This document shows, piece after piece, positions 55,837-64,000 of a stretch of 64,000 bases of DNA. The stretch lies in assembly GCF_001705515.1 (NCBI RefSeq), contig NZ_MDJS01000001.1:2046001-2110000 (forward strand), read 5' to 3'. The notes beneath the pieces were generated by a model. It saw nothing but the letters and a program-made list of their open reading frames with translations. It made no database searches and was not told the origin of the DNA. The position numbers and the translations under genes are program-made. How positions within the stretch are numbered: position 1 is the stretch's first letter; every line of letters begins with the position of its first letter. Source of the stretch: Mucilaginibacter sp. PPCGB 2223. GTDB taxonomy: Bacteria > Bacteroidota > Bacteroidia > Sphingobacteriales > Sphingobacteriaceae.

Positions 55837-57081
55837 GTGAATTACGAAAAAACACTGGAACTGGTACGCGAACATGTACTATCACTTTTTAAAACACGCG
55901 CTGATGACCGGCTGACCTATCATAACGCCGCACATACGCAAAGCGTGGTATCATACGCCATACAGATAGCCGACCATTACCAGTTGAACGATGATGATTT
56001 TTTTGCTGTATGCGCTGCGGCATGGTTTCATGATAGCGGGTATATGCTGGATCTGCACAACCACGAAGATAAGAGTATCGAAATAGCGAGGGAGTTCTTC
56101 TCTGATCATCACATCAAGGCAGCTGTACTTGATAGGATAATTGCTTGCATTGAGGCTACCAAGATACCACAAAACCCCAAAGGGCTTTTGGAAAATATTT
56201 TATGTGATGCCGATCTGTTCCATTTAGGCACTGATGACTTTACCGGGAAAAGTAAACAGTTACGTCAGGAGGTTGAGGCTCTGCACAATACCAGGATAGA
56301 TAGGGCCGAATGGCGGCAAAGGAATATCGACCTGCTTGAGGGGCACCGCTATCATACCGACTATTGCCGGCTTCTGCTTCACGACAGGCTACAAGAAAAC
56401 CTTAACAAATTGCGCAATAAACAACAAAAGACTGCAAGTAAAGAGCAACGCCCGGTGCCGGAAACGCAGGATACCCCTCCCGGATTTGAGCCTGCACAAG
56501 CCGAAATAGTAAACATCGTAAACAATGCGCCGCATTTAAAAGTTAAAAAGGATAAAAAACGCAGCAAAGGCGTTGAAACCATGCTGCGGATAACGGCCAG
56601 CAACCAGCAACGTTTAAGCAACATGGCCGATAGCAAGGCGCATATTATGATATCAGTCAACTCCATTATTATATCACTGCTGTTAAGTTTACTGTTGCGT
56701 AAGATAGACGAGCATCCCAACCAACTAATACCGGCCATTATTTTACTGGGCATCAACCTGGTCACTATTGTTTTTGCCATACTGGCTACACGCCCCAATG
56801 TTACACAGGGTACCTTCACCGGCGAAGAAGTTAAAAACCGTAAAGTGAACCTGATGTTCTTCGGTAATTTTTTTAAGATGCCTTTTGACGATTATGAAGC
56901 CGGCATGAACGATATGATGAACGATAACAACTTTTTATACGGCAGCATGGTGAAGGATATGTATTCGCAAGGTGTGGTGCTGGGCCGCAAATACCACTTG
57001 CTGCGTATGTCGTACAACGTGTTTATGTATGGCCTGGTGATCTCGGTAGTGGCGTTTGTTATATCAACCCTGGCCGTATAA
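55837..57081 (+). CDS. HD-domain protein fused to a Pycsar-type membrane effector (PycTM) domain
   Basis: Two-part inner-membrane protein of 414 residues. The N-terminal HD phosphohydrolase has H33, H65-D66 (AAWFHDSGYM) and D124/D126 (ILCDADLFHLG) as metal ligands. A charged linker (about 190-245) follows. The C-terminal region (about 250-414) carries LSNMADSKAHIMISVNSIII and membrane helices at about 270-288, 297-318 and 394-414, with LMFFGNFFKMPFDDY in between. This is the pattern of PycTM, the membrane-damaging effector of Pycsar anti-phage systems. No nucleotide cyclase is encoded nearby. It begins with GTG 55837 and its stop overlaps the ppk1 start by one base. Whether it is a defence effector or a signalling protein is open. 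Confidence 0.8.
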   Translation: MNYEKTLELVREHVLSLFKTRADDRLTYHNAAHTQSVVSYAIQIADHYQLNDDDFFAVCAAAWFHDSGYMLDLHNHEDKSIEIAREFFSDHHIKAAVLDRIIACIEATKIPQNPKGLLENILCDADLFHLGTDDFTGKSKQLRQEVEALHNTRIDRAEWRQRNIDLLEGHRYHTDYCRLLLHDRLQENLNKLRNKQQKTASKEQRPVPETQDTPPGFEPAQAEIVNIVNNAPHLKVKKDKKRSKGVETMLRITASNQQRLSNMADSKAHIMISVNSIIISLLLSLLLRKIDEHPNQLIPAIILLGINLVTIVFAILATRPNVTQGTFTGEEVKNRKVNLMFFGNFFKMPFDDYEAGMNDMMNDNNFLYGSMVKDMYSQGVVLGRKYHLLRMSYNVFMYGLVISVVAFVISTLAV

Positions 57082-59132
57082 TGATGAGCACGCCGGCATT
57101 TACACCTGTTTTTTTTGACCGCGACTTAAGCTGGCTGAAATTTAACGAACTGGTGCTGGAACAGGCTGAGAATCCTGCCGTACCTGTTTTAGAGCAGATC
57201 AAATTCTTATCCATCTTTTCATCAAACCTGGATGAGTTTTACCGTGTACGGATGCCCGTGTTGCACGCCGTTGATAAGATCGTAAAAAAAGGCAAAAAAG
57301 AGATCAATATCCAATCTTCAGCAGTACAGGCCGTCGCTCTCATCGAAGATCAGCAGCAAAAATTCGGCCGGATACTTAAGGATCAAATTATTCCCGAACT
57401 GGAGAAAAACAATATCACCTTTTGGTATGATAAGCCGCTGGATAATGGGGTATTCAGTGAAACATCCAATTGGTTTTATAGCCAGGTACTGGCGTTCCTG
57501 CACCCTGCACATATCATAAAAGATAAATTTTATCCAAAAAACAACAGGCTTTATTTTTTGATCTTCCTAAAAAAACAGGATCAAGGCGAAGAACAGGTGG
57601 TTTTAAATATCCCCAGTGATAAACTGCCGCGTTTTTTTTCTATCAACCAAAATAAAAAACAGCACATTGTTTTTTTAGATGATATCATCAGGTTTCACCT
57701 GCCGGCGATATTTAAAAACTGCACGATAAAAAACTGCTACAGCTTTAAAATAACGCGCGATGCCGAGATCGACCTGAAAGATGAATATGAGGGCGACATA
57801 GCCGAACAGATTGAAAAACAGCTCGAGAAACGGGAGTTTGGTTATGCTACCCGCCTGCTTTACTCGCCAGGCATGCCGTTAAGGGTTTTGGAAATGCTGA
57901 TAGACCGGTTTAACCTTCATCATGCCAACCGCATGCCGGGCGGCGTATATCACAACCTGAAAGACCTTTTTGATTTCCCGGTTAAGAACACCGGTTTAAG
58001 TTACCACGAGTGGCCCGCGGTCATCGCTCATCCTGTCCAAACACAAAGCCCGGTTTTCGATGATATAAGCAAGGGCGATATCATCGTACATACACCTTAT
58101 CAAAGCTACAATATCATACTTCGTTTCTTCAACGAAGCCGCTATTGATGCCGGTGTAGAAGAAATATACGTAAGCCTTTACCGTGTCGCCAGCGATTCGC
58201 GCATTGTGAACGCCCTTATCAGCGCGGCTAAAAACGGTAAAAAAGTAAATGTGCTGGTAGAGTTAAAGGCCCGCTTTGATGAGGCAAACAATTTAAAATG
58301 GGCTAAGAAGCTTAAAAACGCAGGTGCAAGTATCATCTACAGCGTTACTGCCTTAAAGGTGCACGCCAAGATAGCCCTGGTAAAACGCAGGCAGCACGGC
58401 AGGCTTAAATATTTTGGATTATTAGGTACCGGCAATTTTAACGAAGGCACAGCCAGGGTTTATACCGATCATATCCTGATGACCGGCAACGGCGACCTGT
58501 TGCGCGAGGTAGAATTGCTGTTCATCTTTTTGGCCAAGCGTGTTAAACCCGAAAAGCACCCGCCCATCTATTTTGAACATTTACTGGTGTCGAAATTTAA
58601 TTTGCGGCAACGCTTTATAGGGCTGATCGACCGTGAGATCGAACTGGCAAAACAAGGCAAACCGGCCAGAATAACCCTCAAGATTAACAATATTGAGGAA
58701 CAGGTATTGATCTCGAAATTATACGAGGCATCCAACGCGGGCGTAAGTATCAATATTATTGCCCGGAGTATTTGCTGCCTGATGCCGGGGGTGAAGGGCA
58801 TGAGCGAAAATATCCGGGTGACCCGCATTGTTGACCGTTACCTGGAGCACGGCCGTGTTTTCATTTTTAATAACGATAACAAACCGGAGGTCTACCTCGG
58901 TTCGGCCGACTGGATGAACCGGAATATTTATCATCGTATCGAAGTTTGTTATCCCATTTATGATCCGCAAATCAAACAACAACTGCTTGACATTGTAGAT
59001 ATACAATTAAAGGATGATGCACAGGCCGTGGCGATAGATGATCAGCTGAACAATGTTCCGTTTCAACACAACGCTAAGCCACAGCAATCGCAATTACAGA
59101 TCTACAACCTATTGAATAAAACATCGCATTGA
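57081..59132 (+). CDS. ppk1: Polyphosphate kinase 1
   Basis: Builds polyphosphate from ATP and acts reversibly, at the inner face of the membrane. The order is N-domain (FFDRDLSWLKFNELVLEQAE), head domain, then two phospholipase-D-like catalytic domains. VELKARFDEANNLKWAKKL and ALKVHAKIALVKRR hold H428, which matches the autophosphorylated His of E. coli PPK (H435). LLGTGNFNEGTARVYTD and GSADWMNRNIYHRIEVCYPI complete the active site. At 683 residues it compares with 688 in E. coli. The start overlaps the HD-PycTM stop, the next gene begins 1 bp after its stop; the coupling implies joint production. Confidence 0.95.
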   Translation: MMSTPAFTPVFFDRDLSWLKFNELVLEQAENPAVPVLEQIKFLSIFSSNLDEFYRVRMPVLHAVDKIVKKGKKEINIQSSAVQAVALIEDQQQKFGRILKDQIIPELEKNNITFWYDKPLDNGVFSETSNWFYSQVLAFLHPAHIIKDKFYPKNNRLYFLIFLKKQDQGEEQVVLNIPSDKLPRFFSINQNKKQHIVFLDDIIRFHLPAIFKNCTIKNCYSFKITRDAEIDLKDEYEGDIAEQIEKQLEKREFGYATRLLYSPGMPLRVLEMLIDRFNLHHANRMPGGVYHNLKDLFDFPVKNTGLSYHEWPAVIAHPVQTQSPVFDDISKGDIIVHTPYQSYNIILRFFNEAAIDAGVEEIYVSLYRVASDSRIVNALISAAKNGKKVNVLVELKARFDEANNLKWAKKLKNAGASIIYSVTALKVHAKIALVKRRQHGRLKYFGLLGTGNFNEGTARVYTDHILMTGNGDLLREVELLFIFLAKRVKPEKHPPIYFEHLLVSKFNLRQRFIGLIDREIELAKQGKPARITLKINNIEEQVLISKLYEASNAGVSINIIARSICCLMPGVKGMSENIRVTRIVDRYLEHGRVFIFNNDNKPEVYLGSADWMNRNIYHRIEVCYPIYDPQIKQQLLDIVDIQLKDDAQAVAIDDQLNNVPFQHNAKPQQSQLQIYNLLNKTSH

Positions 59133-59133
59133 C

Positions 59134-60003
59134 ATGATGAAAAACACGATCATATACACCGCCATCCTGTTGATGTGCTCCGCTTTTGCGGGATGTGCAC
59201 AAAAGCAGGTTTATACAAGTCCGCCCGGTTACGACCTGACCAAACCTGTAAAATATATCATGCCCGATAGTCTGCATGAAATATCGGGCATAGCCTTTAG
59301 ACAAGGCAACGCGGGCATGCTTTACGCGGAAGAAGACGAGCATGGCCGTGTGTACTATCTGCACTTAGGCGATAAAACAGCAAAGTATACCCAGTTCAGG
59401 CCTAAAGGCGATTTTGAGGATATGGCCATTTGCGGGCAGCAGGTGGTAATGCTGCAAAGCAAAGGTGTACTTTTTACCCTGCCGCTTGCCGAAGTAGGCA
59501 AACCGCAAACTAATAATGTACAAAAATGGGAAGGTATCTTACCCGACGGGGAGTACGAAGGTTTGTATGCCGACGAAAAGGCCCAGCAGGTTTACGTATT
59601 GTGTAAGCATTGCAGCATCGATAAAACGAGCAAAACCAACAGCGGCTTTATTTTCGACCTGGGAGCCAACGGGGGCATAAAAAAGTCGGGCGATTTTGTG
59701 ATCAGCGTAAAGCATATCGAAGATATCACCGGGCAGGACAAGGTGCGTTTCCACCCGTCCGGCCTGAGCCAAAACCCGGTTAACGGCGACTGGTGGATAC
59801 TTTCATCCGTTAACAAAATGCTCGTTGTGGCCGATAGCAAATGGAAAGTAAGGCAGGTTTATTTGTTAGACCCCGCACTGTTCACCCAACCCGAGGGCAT
59901 TACCTTCGATAACCAGAACAACCTGTACATCTCGAATGAAGGCGGCGACTCACCCCATGCTAACGTCTTAGAATTTCCTTATCAAAAAACCTCAGGAAAT
60001 TGA
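59134..60003 (+). CDS. SdiA-regulated-like lipoprotein
   Basis: Exported lipoprotein (lipobox in LLMCSAFAGCAQK) with a beta-propeller-like domain that resembles the SdiA-regulated family: DSLHEISGIAFRQGNAGMLY, GDFEDMAICGQQVVMLQSKG, EYEGLYADEKAQQVYVLCKH, and QPEGITFDNQNNLYISNEGG. It has 289 residues. The phytase/NHL-like propeller repeats suggest binding of a phosphate-rich or acidic ligand, though I see no catalytic set. It starts one base behind ppk1 and overlaps the next gene by 4 bp. A link to phosphate or polyphosphate is from context only. Confidence 0.75.
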   Translation: MMKNTIIYTAILLMCSAFAGCAQKQVYTSPPGYDLTKPVKYIMPDSLHEISGIAFRQGNAGMLYAEEDEHGRVYYLHLGDKTAKYTQFRPKGDFEDMAICGQQVVMLQSKGVLFTLPLAEVGKPQTNNVQKWEGILPDGEYEGLYADEKAQQVYVLCKHCSIDKTSKTNSGFIFDLGANGGIKKSGDFVISVKHIEDITGQDKVRFHPSGLSQNPVNGDWWILSSVNKMLVVADSKWKVRQVYLLDPALFTQPEGITFDNQNNLYISNEGGDSPHANVLEFPYQKTSGN

Positions 60004-63000
60004 TGAAAAAGGCAGCGCTATTTTTACTTTTAACAATACCGCTTTGGTTAAAGGCACAAAACAACATCCAAAGCCGGGTAATTTTAATTGGCGATGCCGG
60101 CGAGATGGATAGCCAGCAAGCTTTTGTGCTCCGCAACGCCGCGTCGAAGATAATTAAAGGCAAAACCACCGTGCTTTACCTGGGCGATAATGTTTATCCT
60201 ACAGGCATGGGTTTGCCGGGCAGCCCCGATGAGCAGACCACAAAAAATATATTGCGCACGCAGTTTACCCCTATGCGCCAGGCCGGTGCGCCTGTTTACT
60301 TTGTACCGGGCAATCACGATTGGGACCGGATGGGCCCGCTGGGCCTGGCAAAGATCAAAAGACAATCGGAGTTTTTAGCCGAGCAAAAAGACTCTCTGCT
60401 GCGCGCGGCCCCGGCCAACGGCTGCCCCGATCCTACCGAGATCAGCGTATCCGACAACATGGTCATCATCGCTTTCGACTCAGAGTGGTGGCTCTATCTT
60501 TACAATAAAGACAACCCTATAGCGGATTGTGATTGCAAAACCAACGATGAGATACAGGCACGTTTTGCCGAATTGCTGTATAAAAACCGTAATAAAGTGA
60601 TTTTACTGGCCGATCACCACCCTTTCGAATCGTACGGGCACCATGGTGGCAGCTATATTTTTAAGGATTATCTCTTCCCTTTAACCTCAGTAAAGGAGAA
60701 CCTGTATGTACCGATGCCGGTATTGGGCGCATTATATCCTTTTTTGCGTGGGACTTTTGATGTCCCCGAGGATAACGGGCACCCGTTGTACCGTACCATG
60801 GTAAAAATGATCGGCGATGTTTTTAACGGCGACCCGAATGTGATCCATGTGTCGGGCCACGAGCATGGATTGCAGTTTATCCGCGATGGCGATTTTACCC
60901 AGGTGGTAAGTGGTTCGGGCGCCAAAAGGGCAGTAGTAAAAAAAGGCAGGAACTCGCTCTTCGCGCAAAGCATAGGTGGCTATGTAACCGTTGACCAAAT
61001 GGACGATAAGAGCATAAAATTTACTTACTACGCCAATACCGCAGATAGCACACTGAGCCCTGTTTTTACCTATACCAAACCCTATGTTAAAATAAAGATA
61101 CCCGTTGAAAGAAGCGACGAGATTATCAAAGGCGATAGTATTACCATCGCCGCCAAGCCATCTTTTGATAAAGCCGATAAAGCCCACCGTCTGATGTTCG
61201 GTGAAAACTATCGTAAAGAATGGGCTGCCCCTGCACGGGTTCCGGTTATCAAAATGAGCACCTATAAAGGTGGCCTTACGCCGGTATCATTCGGCGGCGC
61301 GCACCAGAAACAAGCGCTGGTGCTTAAAGATGCGTCCGGCAAAAAATACGTGCTGAGCAGCATCGAAAAATACCCTTTAATTTTATTGCCGCAAGCCTTA
61401 AGCCAAACCTTTGCCAAATCGTGGCTGAGCGATGCCATGTCGGCTCAACATCCGTACGGCGCGTTAATAGCGCCGGTTATTGCGCAGGCGGTAAAGGTGG
61501 CGCACACTACGCCCGTCATCGGTTACGTTGCGGCCGACCGGCGCCTTGGTTATTACGAAAAAGAGTTTGCGGGCACCTTATGCCTGCTCGAAGAGCGTGA
61601 ACCTGGCGGCGATAGTTCGATCAACACGGGGAACATGATCAGGGAGCTGGACAGGAACAATTCGAACCGGCTGGACAGTATCGAGTTTTTCCGCGCCAGG
61701 CTATTGGATTGGTTTTTGGGCGACTGGGATCAGCGGGCCGATCAGCTGCGCTGGCTGGGTATACAACGTGGGCCGATCAGATATTTTTCGGCCATCCCCC
61801 ACGATCGTGCCGTAGCCTTCTATATCAACGAGGGTATCCTGCCGCAGGTTGCATCAAGGCAATATGTAGCACGATACCTAAAAGGGTATGAGGCACCGCC
61901 GGGCTCGATCATCGATTTCTTCTATAATGGACATGATCTCAACACGCGCTTTTTAAGCCAGATAAGTTATGAAAAATGGATGCAGGTAACACGTGAGTTT
62001 GCTGCGGCATTGACCAATGATGTTCTCGAGCAATCGCTCAGGCGGCTGCCGCTGGCCATTTACCGGATCAGTCACGACAGGTTGTTAAAAGATATGAAAT
62101 ATCGCCGCGACCATTTGATGGAAGCATCGGATATCTATTTCCGGTTCTTAAATAAAATAGTCGACATTAAAGCGACAGACAAAAGCGAGCTCTTTATCCT
62201 GAAAGACACTTTAAAAAACAGCCTGATCGTAAGAGTCAATAAACTACCCGTTACCGGTGTAAAAAGCACTGTATATTTTAAGGTGTTCGATCCGGCTTTT
62301 ACCAAAGAGGTAAGGCTGTTCGTGGCCAAAGGGCAGGACAGTATCGTGGTGAACAATACCACATCGCCGATAAAAATACGTATAGTTGGCGGTGATGGCA
62401 ACCGGGTATATAACCTGCAAAACAACACCAAAAAGATAGATATTTACGAAAAGGTAAACACGGCAACGTTTACAGGTAGTGGCAAAGTGATTGTAGATAA
62501 AAAACTATCGAACGACTCGGCTAACGTGGCCTACCTGCCTACCACGCGTTATAATACCGGTATCCCCTTATTTACTACGGGCTATGACCGCGATCAGGGC
62601 TATTTTATTGATGCAGGTGTAAAATACCTGCGCCAGGGCTTCCGTAAAAATCCATCAACCACGCAAACGCTTACAGTAGGGCATGCATTTGGCTACGAGG
62701 CTACCCGGGTTAATTTCATTGCCGATATCAATAGCGGCCCCCAAAAGGCCGACGCCGAATTGCAGTTTAAAGGTTATTTCCCAAATAACATTAACTTCTT
62801 TGGCCGGGGCAATACAAGCGCATATAATAAAACCGGCGATTACGTTAATTTCTATCGCGCCAAATTCAATTTCCTTACCGCCGATGCAAGCCTGCGCTGG
62901 CAAAACATAGCGGCAACGCAAAGTGTGCGGTTGGGGCCGTCTATCCAATACTATCATTATTTAAACGATTCCTCGCCCAACCTCATCAATCATCCCAAGC

Positions 63001-63608
63001 TGGTTAACAGTTACGATAGCCTGAACTATACACAAAATAAACTGCACATAGGTTTTATGGTGACTTATATTGATGATAAGCGCGACCGGAAGATACTGAC
63101 CTCGTGGGGCGCATACGTCAATTCGCGCATACAGGCCTACGCAGGTATAGGTAATACGGCAAAAACTTTTCTGCAATGGATGACAGAAGCCATACTGTAC
63201 AAAAGTGTAGACACCTACTCGAACTTTGTGATAACCGAGAAGGCCGGGGCCGGGGTAACGCTCGGCAAAACCACTTTTTACCAGGCCATGTTTTTGGGTG
63301 GCGAAAATAACCTGATCGGTTACCGGCAAAACCGCTTTGCCGGCGAGCAAATGTTTTATAATAACCTCGAGGCGAGGATAAAGTTCAACAATCTGTTCTC
63401 CTATATTCTGACAGGGCAGTACGGCATTACGGCTGCCTATGATATCGGCCGTGTCTGGGACCGTTCTGAACAGTCGAACGCCGTTTGGCATAATGGTTTT
63501 GGTGCAGGCGTTTATTTTTCACCGTCGGATATGGCGCTCCTGCAGGCCAAGGCAGGCTACTCCGTCGAAGGCTGGTACCCGTCGATCAATTTTACCTTAA
63601 CATTTTAG
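60000..63608 (+). CDS. Metallophosphoesterase with kinase-like middle region and Omp85-like barrel
   Basis: Very large exported protein (1202 residues). Signal peptide (PLWLKAQ), then a calcineurin-like phosphoesterase domain with a full metal set: VILIGDAGE (D32), LYLGDNVYPTG (D63, N64), FVPGNHDWD (N105, H106), ADHHPFESYG and VSGHEHGLQ (H287, H289). The middle part (about 400-700) contains LVLKDASGKKYVLSSIEKYP, LLDWFLGDWDQRADQLRWLG (D575, D577) and IPHDRAVAF (D602), which resembles the catalytic region of atypical HipA/Fam20-like kinases. The last 350 residues are beta-strand rich, with LIGYRQNRFAGEQMF (R1109) like the conserved L6 loop of Omp85 proteins and a C-terminal Phe. It should sit in the outer membrane. 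The ATG overlaps the previous stop. The kinase reading is my inference. Confidence 0.8.
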   Translation: MMKKAALFLLLTIPLWLKAQNNIQSRVILIGDAGEMDSQQAFVLRNAASKIIKGKTTVLYLGDNVYPTGMGLPGSPDEQTTKNILRTQFTPMRQAGAPVYFVPGNHDWDRMGPLGLAKIKRQSEFLAEQKDSLLRAAPANGCPDPTEISVSDNMVIIAFDSEWWLYLYNKDNPIADCDCKTNDEIQARFAELLYKNRNKVILLADHHPFESYGHHGGSYIFKDYLFPLTSVKENLYVPMPVLGALYPFLRGTFDVPEDNGHPLYRTMVKMIGDVFNGDPNVIHVSGHEHGLQFIRDGDFTQVVSGSGAKRAVVKKGRNSLFAQSIGGYVTVDQMDDKSIKFTYYANTADSTLSPVFTYTKPYVKIKIPVERSDEIIKGDSITIAAKPSFDKADKAHRLMFGENYRKEWAAPARVPVIKMSTYKGGLTPVSFGGAHQKQALVLKDASGKKYVLSSIEKYPLILLPQALSQTFAKSWLSDAMSAQHPYGALIAPVIAQAVKVAHTTPVIGYVAADRRLGYYEKEFAGTLCLLEEREPGGDSSINTGNMIRELDRNNSNRLDSIEFFRARLLDWFLGDWDQRADQLRWLGIQRGPIRYFSAIPHDRAVAFYINEGILPQVASRQYVARYLKGYEAPPGSIIDFFYNGHDLNTRFLSQISYEKWMQVTREFAAALTNDVLEQSLRRLPLAIYRISHDRLLKDMKYRRDHLMEASDIYFRFLNKIVDIKATDKSELFILKDTLKNSLIVRVNKLPVTGVKSTVYFKVFDPAFTKEVRLFVAKGQDSIVVNNTTSPIKIRIVGGDGNRVYNLQNNTKKIDIYEKVNTATFTGSGKVIVDKKLSNDSANVAYLPTTRYNTGIPLFTTGYDRDQGYFIDAGVKYLRQGFRKNPSTTQTLTVGHAFGYEATRVNFIADINSGPQKADAELQFKGYFPNNINFFGRGNTSAYNKTGDYVNFYRAKFNFLTADASLRWQNIAATQSVRLGPSIQYYHYLNDSSPNLINHPKLVNSYDSLNYTQNKLHIGFMVTYIDDKRDRKILTSWGAYVNSRIQAYAGIGNTAKTFLQWMTEAILYKSVDTYSNFVITEKAGAGVTLGKTTFYQAMFLGGENNLIGYRQNRFAGEQMFYNNLEARIKFNNLFSYILTGQYGITAAYDIGRVWDRSEQSNAVWHNGFGAGVYFSPSDMALLQAKAGYSVEGWYPSINFTLTF

Positions 63609-63637: not shown

Positions 63638-64000
63638 ATGCAAACAGCTATACTTGATATTAAGGAGAACGCGGTAGAGAACGAACTGGTGGAAACCGCC
63701 TTTTCGTTTAAATCGTTTATCAACTATCTCAAAAAGCGCGTGGATGCGGAACAAACCATTAAAGGCGAGTTCTACCGTTTCGTGCTCAACAAGTTCAAGT
63801 ACTATCCCGAGCTTGAAACAAAGACGCTAACCGCCCATGAGGCAGGAAAATATACCAGTGTTCTGGAATTGGTGTATACTATCCTCTCGCCCGCCATTGA
63901 AGATGAGACCAGGTTTTTCTGGGCATTAAGCACGCCACTGCCGTCGCAGATAGTTTATAGCACCGACGCCTTTTTTAGTTTTTTAGCCAAACAGAATGAG
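63638..64000 (+). CDS. Unrecognised protein, 5' part only
   Basis: Open frame of 121 codons from ATG 63638 (MQTAILDIKENAVENELVET) that continues past the window edge. There is no signal peptide; it is helix-rich, with AFSFKSFINYLKKRVDAEQT and YRFVLNKFKYYPELETKTLT. I have seen this type of N-terminus in large GAF-domain signalling proteins of Sphingobacteriaceae, but nothing visible here proves that. It lies 29 bp behind the phosphoesterase/barrel gene on the same strand, so it is probably the last or a later member of the ppk1 operon. Confidence 0.65.
   Translation, partial: MQTAILDIKENAVENELVETAFSFKSFINYLKKRVDAEQTIKGEFYRFVLNKFKYYPELETKTLTAHEAGKYTSVLELVYTILSPAIEDETRFFWALSTPLPSQIVYSTDAFFSFLAKQNE

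Follow-up and report, generated by a model that had tools for sequence, protein, structure and literature searches.

A purple acid phosphatase, a predicted kinase fold and an Omp85-type barrel joined in one exported protein of Mucilaginibacter

Fusions of a PF00149 domain with an Omp85 barrel were catalogued in 2014 by Heinz and Lithgow as the "Metallo" subfamily (PMC4104836). The PF00149 domain was labelled a metalloprotease and its topology was left open; sequences with non-POTRA N-terminal domains were found to form separate groups, and the terms "kinase" and "phosphat-" are absent from the main text of that paper. The gene described here, from Mucilaginibacter sp. PPCGB 2223, lies in a stretch of 64,000 nucleotides (the window; contig NZ_MDJS01000001.1, positions 2,046,001 to 2,110,000). 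At window positions 60003–63608 (+ strand) it encodes an exported protein of 1201 amino acids (aa) with three main parts: a phosphatase, a middle region with a predicted kinase fold, and a barrel. As in the "Metallo" subfamily, an N-terminal PF00149 domain and an Omp85 barrel are present in one chain, both above cut-off. The "Metallo" group is described in PMC4104836 as conserved at genus level only, whereas a search for relatives of the middle region of the window protein (with residues 381–833) gave matches in 111 of 296 genomes drawn from the phylum, its own genome included.

Another described system is PlpD, which like the window protein has an enzyme N-terminal to a 16-strand Omp85 barrel. 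PlpD has POTRA and a lipase (PMC11116518); the window protein shows neither. For the middle domain the comparable proteins are CotH, PI4KII, CtkA, HipA and Fam20, which share with it the protein kinase-like (PKL) fold. In B. subtilis CotH two aspartates, D228 and D251, are both reported to be essential (PMC7821199). A term search of the available text of PMC12611786 and PMC12045153, on the Bacteroidota BAM complex and TamL, did not find "phosphatase". Among the matches listed in full-text literature searches, which mostly do not cover subscription papers, no kinase fold is described in an Omp85 protein or joined to an outer-membrane barrel. Kinase folds outside the Gram-negative cytoplasm are little known. 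A Riemerella metallophosphoesterase (Niu 2021) was also considered as a relative and was not adopted; it is given as a type IX secretion effector in a review table (PMC10202324).

The original prediction, made from the DNA letters, was of a single polypeptide combining a phosphatase, a kinase-like region and an Omp85-like barrel. The open reading frame, the Pfam matches and the predicted models confirm that observation, and the interpretation placed on it is partly supported. We favour, with slightly better than even confidence, the view that the protein is an outer-membrane-anchored periplasmic enzyme in which a purple acid phosphatase is opposed by a PKL kinase, the kinase of the window copy being changed and probably weak.

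The reading frame runs uninterrupted from TTG 60000 to the stop codon at 63606–63608, with 1202 codons counted from the TTG; residue numbers throughout count from TTG 60000. Judged from the sequence, ATG 60003 is the likelier start codon: its A overlaps the upstream TGA, AGGA precedes it by 5 bases, and the sequence after it, MKKAALFLLLTIPLWLKAQ, resembles a signal peptide.

60003..63608, + strand: whole gene, with signal peptide, purple acid phosphatase, PKL domain, all-beta domain and Omp85-type barrel (open reading frame, Pfam, predicted model)

Two Pfam families are above cut-off, Metallophos (residues 26–225, E 1.2e-7) and Omp85 (residues 958–1171, E 3.9e-10). A predicted model of residues 21–1202, from a 50-row alignment, has a mean pLDDT of 83.6 and a pTM of 0.72. 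The nearest full-length relatives are from Mucilaginibacter, with about 62–64 percent identity, and one partial relative shows 69 percent.

The phosphatase occupies the N-terminal region.

60069..61037, + strand: purple acid phosphatase domain, residues 24–346 (PF00149, fold match, ligand motifs)
60090, 60183, 60309, 60609 and 60855, + strand: phosphatase motifs GDAG, GDNVY, GNHD, ADHHP and GHEH, respectively (sequence)

Human TRAP (2bq8) matches the predicted model of this domain with a Z of 28.9 and a root mean square deviation (rmsd) of 2.8 over 269 residues. Purple acid phosphatases have the ligand motif set DxG, GDxxY, GNH, xxH and GHxH. The window protein has the complete set, including Tyr66 of GDNVY. 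Among aligned members D32, D63, Y66, N105, H206 and H207 are invariant (73/73), as is H287 (75/75); H289 is kept in 73/75. The model is of low confidence over approximately 45 residues, roughly 216–260. By predicted fold and ligand motifs, then, the N-terminal domain is of the purple acid type. The metal site had been predicted to be intact and of calcineurin type; the ligands are indeed intact, and the type is corrected by the TRAP match. The small mammalian purple acid phosphatases (TRAP/uteroferrin) share the fold and the ligand motifs, the GDNxY tyrosine among them; unlike them, the window phosphatase is joined to an outer-membrane protein.

The C-terminal part is all-beta. In DSSP assignments of both models, the sequence past about residue 720 forms strands, and no helix of four or more residues is present save a short one near residue 840.

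62160..62549, + strand: all-beta domain between the PKL domain and the barrel, residues 721–850, in the usual place of POTRA (DSSP of both models)
62556..63605, + strand: 16-strand Omp85-type barrel, residues 853–1202, with L6 loop LIGYRQNRFAG and C-terminal Phe (PF01103, DSSP, fold match)

The count of 16 long strands was made by hand from the DSSP list, excluding two 3-residue strands; the L6 loop sits between strands 11 and 12. The usual Omp85 L6 motif is RGF/Y. At its first position, 1106, Arg is found in 40 of 91 members and Ile in the window protein; G1107 is present in 90 of 91, and F or Y at 1108 in 88 of 91. The barrel model matches BamA (Z 27.3) and TamA (Z 27.2). A check for POTRA found none, either in the model of residues 21–1202 or among the Pfam matches, and the all-beta region precedes the barrel. 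Thus the modelled barrel is Omp85-like, as had been predicted, of the BamA/TamA type and without POTRA.

Scans of the window protein with Pfam and NCBIfam place no family on the middle region, between phosphatase and barrel. A PDB sequence search yielded no kinase, either for the single protein (best E 0.65) or for a 63-member profile (best E 0.16). A Pfam scan of the 63 relatives shows no consistent family; Fam20C and the PI3/PI4 kinase families are missing from the 25 of 30 families listed in that scan, and no search was aimed at them.

61128..62159, + strand: PKL domain, residues ~377–720 (AF2 model, fold searches, hhalign with CotH, conservation)
61293 and 61356, + strand: PKL elements, Gly-rich loop GGAHQ and K457 in SSIEKY, respectively (sequence, conservation)
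61719 and 61800, + strand: PKL elements, catalytic-loop-like GDWDQR and metal-Asp-like HDRAVAF, respectively (sequence, conservation)

An AF2 prediction of the middle domain from the 63 sequences has a pLDDT of 88.7 and a pTM of 0.89, and displays the two-lobe kinase fold of the PKL superfamily. The top Foldseek match is CtkA, with E 1.1e-6, an rmsd of 7.8 and TM-scores of 0.33 (by query) and 0.49 (by target); PI4KII-alpha comes next, and then CotH, Rio2, WaaP and Golgi casein kinase, all with E below 0.001. VIA-align gives Z values of 15.8 for PI4KII-beta, 14.4 for CotH, 13.7 for CtkA, 10.8 for HipA and 10.4 for Fam20A; these matches cover model residues ~1–348 (protein residues 372–719), and families that VIA-align does not list are not counted as absent. 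A viral fold search yielded PI3/4-kinase-like and other kinase proteins and nothing decisive. The HipA/Fam20-like similarity seen in the original prediction is therefore borne out by structure prediction and fold search.

A profile comparison with hhalign, which is independent of the predicted model, points in the same direction. The kinase domain (123 rows) against CotH scores 33.8 (P 0.0032), compared with 36.6 for the positive control CotH–HipA, 22.6 for reversed CotH and 22.2 for the best of 30 column shuffles. In this alignment GDWD is placed on the xxWD of CotH and PRDRD on its IPWD, i.e. both loops are aligned. (An earlier run with the 63-member alignment was weak, with a probability of 2.7 percent; the 123-row version with controls was used.) The spacing of the two CotH aspartates (D228–D251, PMC7821199) is 23 vs 25 in the window protein. 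Unlike CotH and HipA, the middle domain has a signature of its own, RKDDRHQWRDRD, and is fused to a phosphatase and a barrel. The genome of the window strain shows no match to PF08757 (CotH) and none to PF07804 (HipA_C) at E 0.001. We conclude from the predicted fold and the profile comparison that the middle domain represents a new PKL family, neither CotH nor HipA by their own models.

A calcium-binding reading of the middle domain was set aside because an EF-hand match was obtained in 2 of 63 members (best E 0.069) and the loop is only partly conserved. The EF-hand-like loop itself, DRNNSNRLDSIE, lies within the kinase C-lobe at window positions 61650–61685 (residues 551–562); Asp is present at positions 553, 555 and 559 in 99, 89 and 97 of 123 relatives.

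The 123 kinase domains that were collected come from 78 open reading frames of more than 1000 aa, 31 of 690–1000 aa and 14 shorter ones. Without five truncated or broken frames the numbers are 78, 28 and 12, and there have been at least 7 changes between the fused and the unfused state (10 with those five). In Niabella (L095, L096 and L098) the gene and several of its neighbours are fragmented in the assemblies, a pattern that suggests sequencing error rather than decay.

In one locus, L106, the kinase (545 aa), the phosphatase (403 aa) and the barrel (395 aa) are three consecutive genes, and kinase and phosphatase are both lipoprotein-like. In L094 (Gemmatimonadales) and in L039, separate phosphatase and kinase genes lie side by side; in L039 their products are lipoprotein-like exported proteins. 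Gemmatimonadales, from another phylum, contributed two loci to the matches. Four kinase-only forms of 423–425 aa (L100–L102 and L109) carry a membrane anchor at the N-terminus and stop near the expected start of the all-beta domain. An export signal, lipobox or membrane anchor opens most of the split forms inspected (by a crude script and by eye).

The separate forms bear on the direction in which the enzyme domains face. The original prediction was that their chemistry could be displayed on, or moved through, the outer membrane, and it named PlpD as a precedent for an enzyme fused to an Omp85 barrel. In a type Vd-like secretion, as first proposed for PlpD, the barrel would carry the phosphatase–kinase part to the cell surface; the fusion of an enzyme to an Omp85 barrel is what such a system would look like, and secretion is one option that Heinz and Lithgow (2014) give for the PF00149–Omp85 fusions (PMC4104836). 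The precedent itself was revised in 2024, however: protease and disulfide data now place the enzyme domain of PlpD in the periplasm, where it is reported to act on membrane lipids (PMC11116518). Since the model of the window protein is without POTRA, and since phosphatase and kinase in L106 and L039 are separate lipoprotein-like exported proteins, passage to the surface appears improbable. The enzyme domains most likely face the periplasm, because the N-terminal domains of characterised Omp85 proteins, PlpD included, are reported to lie there (PMC11116518).

The active site of the kinase fold is highly conserved. K457 of SSIEKY is invariant (123/123 relatives). The invariant lysine is not one of those in the KDxxGK stretch pointed out in the original prediction. 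The predicted "GDWDxR ... DR" spacing does hold, with D575 present in 122/123, D577 in 121/123 and D602 in 117/123. All four residues are kept together in 114 of the 123, the window copy among them, and by the alignment with CotH they may be given active-site roles. The predicted domain thus has kinase lobes with the three aspartates conserved, and the modelled barrel is Omp85-like. The exact 12-position active-site signature is found in 92 of 123 relatives.

The window copy is not one of these. At the 12 positions it reads SKDDQRQLRDRA, and its departures from the family consensus are R453S, R578Q, H579R, W583L, D604A, D673N and Y714F. It belongs to a monophyletic Mucilaginibacter clade of 14 (support 1.0) in which no member has the exact signature, against 92 of the remaining 109 sequences. 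In 5 of the 14, Asn replaces the metal-aspartate D602. Judged by the altered residues, the window copy is probably a phosphatase plus a weakened kinase.

A second copy of the kinase is found next to the gene in several of these genomes.

G000:C1 ~2112005–2114617 (L099:4006–6618), beyond the end of the window: phosphatase-less kinase-barrel paralogue, 2.4 kb downstream of the gene

This paralogue displays the exact signature and has 30 percent identity over residues 377–1198. Eight of the 14 clade genomes, that of the window included, have a phosphatase-less paralogue adjoining the gene, and all eight of these paralogues show the exact signature. Four of the remaining six genomes carry phosphatase-less relatives of 855–878 aa elsewhere. 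Five further loci carry both copies with both signatures exact; thus the presence of two copies alone does not bring about the change of signature.

Mean identity within the clade is 0.710 for the phosphatase, 0.592 for the kinase and 0.545 for the barrel. In a canonical comparison set of 14, chosen by the authors, it is 0.643, 0.579 and 0.580; pairs at least 90 percent identical in the phosphatase were left out. Divergence as a sign of relaxed evolution of the kinase was dropped, as the barrel is looser still. In the clade the phosphatase is more tightly conserved than either kinase or barrel, so these figures are no proof of kinase decay, and it is the altered signature that carries the argument.

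Side-by-side kinase domains without a barrel were also seen, three at L103:5129–10148 and two at L104:4436–7775, several of them lipoprotein-like. One kinase domain of each set has Ser in place of Asp577.

The PKL domain may, throughout the family, be a pseudokinase or have another PKL chemistry (e.g. nucleotide transfer); it would then bind a nucleotide or a phosphorylated ligand and act as a regulator of the phosphatase or the barrel. This would suit a compartment that is poor in ATP, and a clade of 14 that tolerates a changed signature and yet retains the protein, in two genomes without a paralogue. The Trp-rich stretch DQWRW, after the catalytic loop, also fits; it is not a known feature of kinases. 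However, K457, D575, D577 and D602 are kept together beyond the usual needs of binding alone, and exported kinase-only forms exist. We consider a family-wide pseudokinase somewhat unlikely, though deserving of serious weight, and retain the view of a kinase that opposes the phosphatase in most relatives.

The genes around the fusion show a recurring order: HD-PycTM, PPK1, lipoprotein, main gene and 783-aa gene. Neighbours were counted in 58 related loci and 29 chosen distant loci, several of which are shortened by contig ends.

55837..57081, + strand: HD-type hydrolase motif fused to a PycTM transmembrane domain (PF18967 E 1.1e-31; HDIG below cut-off, E 0.02)
57081..59132, + strand: polyphosphate kinase PPK1 (TIGR03705 E 1.7e-204)
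59134..60003, + strand: lipoprotein-like gene with SdiA-regulated similarity (PF06977 E 6.1e-6; Phytase-like below cut-off; lipobox)
63638..64000, + strand, continuing past the window (L099:1639–3987): downstream 783-aa gene, start within the window (GAF similarity below cut-off)

HD-PycTM is present in 40/58 related and 18/29 distant loci. As it is a single-copy gene in the genome of the window strain, finding it within about 7 kb in 18 of the 29 distant loci would be far above chance. The lipoprotein-like gene, whose stop codon shares a base with the start codon of the main gene, is found in 44/58 and 9/29 loci, and the 783-aa gene in 40/58 and 8/29. The PycTM part is of the Pycsar-effector type. 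With regard to a defence reading from PycTM, PADLOC run on six proteins matched the PycTM part and, weakly, PPK1 (DrmC).

Several neighbours have a relation to phosphate. PPK1 is near the gene in 36/58 related and 6/29 distant loci, in agreement with the predicted association with polyphosphate kinase, and PAP2 in 8/58 and 4/29. Models of phosphate-selective porin O/P match near the gene in L160 and L167, barely above cut-off, and a histidine phosphatase is found in L150 and L167. The PPK1, PAP2 and porin matches would suit a periplasmic phosphate scavenger, with phosphate released by the phosphatase and imported or stored by the neighbours, the barrel serving as a pore and the kinase fold having a side role. 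Omp85 barrels, however, are not known as nutrient pores, the kinase-barrel paralogues have no phosphatase, and the HD-PycTM neighbour is ill-fitting for plain scavenging. Such a scavenger is, in our judgement, unlikely.

A CotH gene is near the main gene in 5/29 distant loci. CotH-family genes occur in the same stretch as the middle-domain family in L145, L152, L153, L160, L167 and L107, so that in these six loci two exported PKL families share neighbourhoods.

In the anchored phosphatase–kinase that we favour, the Omp85-type barrel would hold the protein in the outer membrane and the purple acid phosphatase would strip phosphate from periplasmic phosphomonoesters. The PKL domain of most relatives, with nucleotide and metal bound, would phosphorylate a protein, lipid or glycan of the envelope. 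Lipid is one candidate, given that PlpD is reported to act on membrane lipids (PMC11116518). Phosphatase and kinase would then be opposing activities on one anchor, tied by their neighbourhood to polyphosphate metabolism. In the window copy the kinase is probably weak, altered in specificity or purely structural, with the downstream paralogue retaining the canonical active site. The pairing of phosphate removal with phosphate transfer that had been predicted would thus apply in part: the phosphatase ligands are intact, and the window protein may itself not carry out the transfer, its clade having an altered signature.

Several observations weigh against this view. The Foldseek matches of the middle domain are remote, as the TM-scores and rmsd of the top one indicate; the profile similarity to CotH is weak when taken alone (hhalign probability 10 percent); and against HipA the kinase domain scores just 24.1 (reversed HipA, 16.0). 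The periplasm is not known to hold much ATP, which leaves the phosphoryl donor unexplained. As to a weakened kinase in the window copy, the barrel of the clade has diverged more than the kinase relative to the phosphatase, so the kinase is not singled out, and with K457, D575, D577 and D602 retained it may still be active. Two metagenome-assembled clade genomes, L071 and L076, show the altered gene only; thus a partner does not always explain the altered signature.

A wider conjecture, which we regard as a long shot, is that outer-membrane-anchored kinases across the phylum, each on a single chain with a purple acid phosphatase, could carry out reversible phosphorylation of an envelope substrate in the ATP-poor periplasm from a donor other than cytoplasmic ATP (e.g. 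polyphosphate or lipid pyrophosphate), with phosphatase-leaning and kinase-only copies dividing the labour in many Mucilaginibacter.

For the "Metallo" subfamily, the published metalloprotease label of PF00149 is corrected: the domain is a phosphatase by family and, here, by predicted fold. If the kinase is active, the Bacteroidota would gain an outer-membrane phosphorylation system, and the question of its donor would be raised. The altered and intact copies within one genome are a natural test of the purpose of the kinase part.

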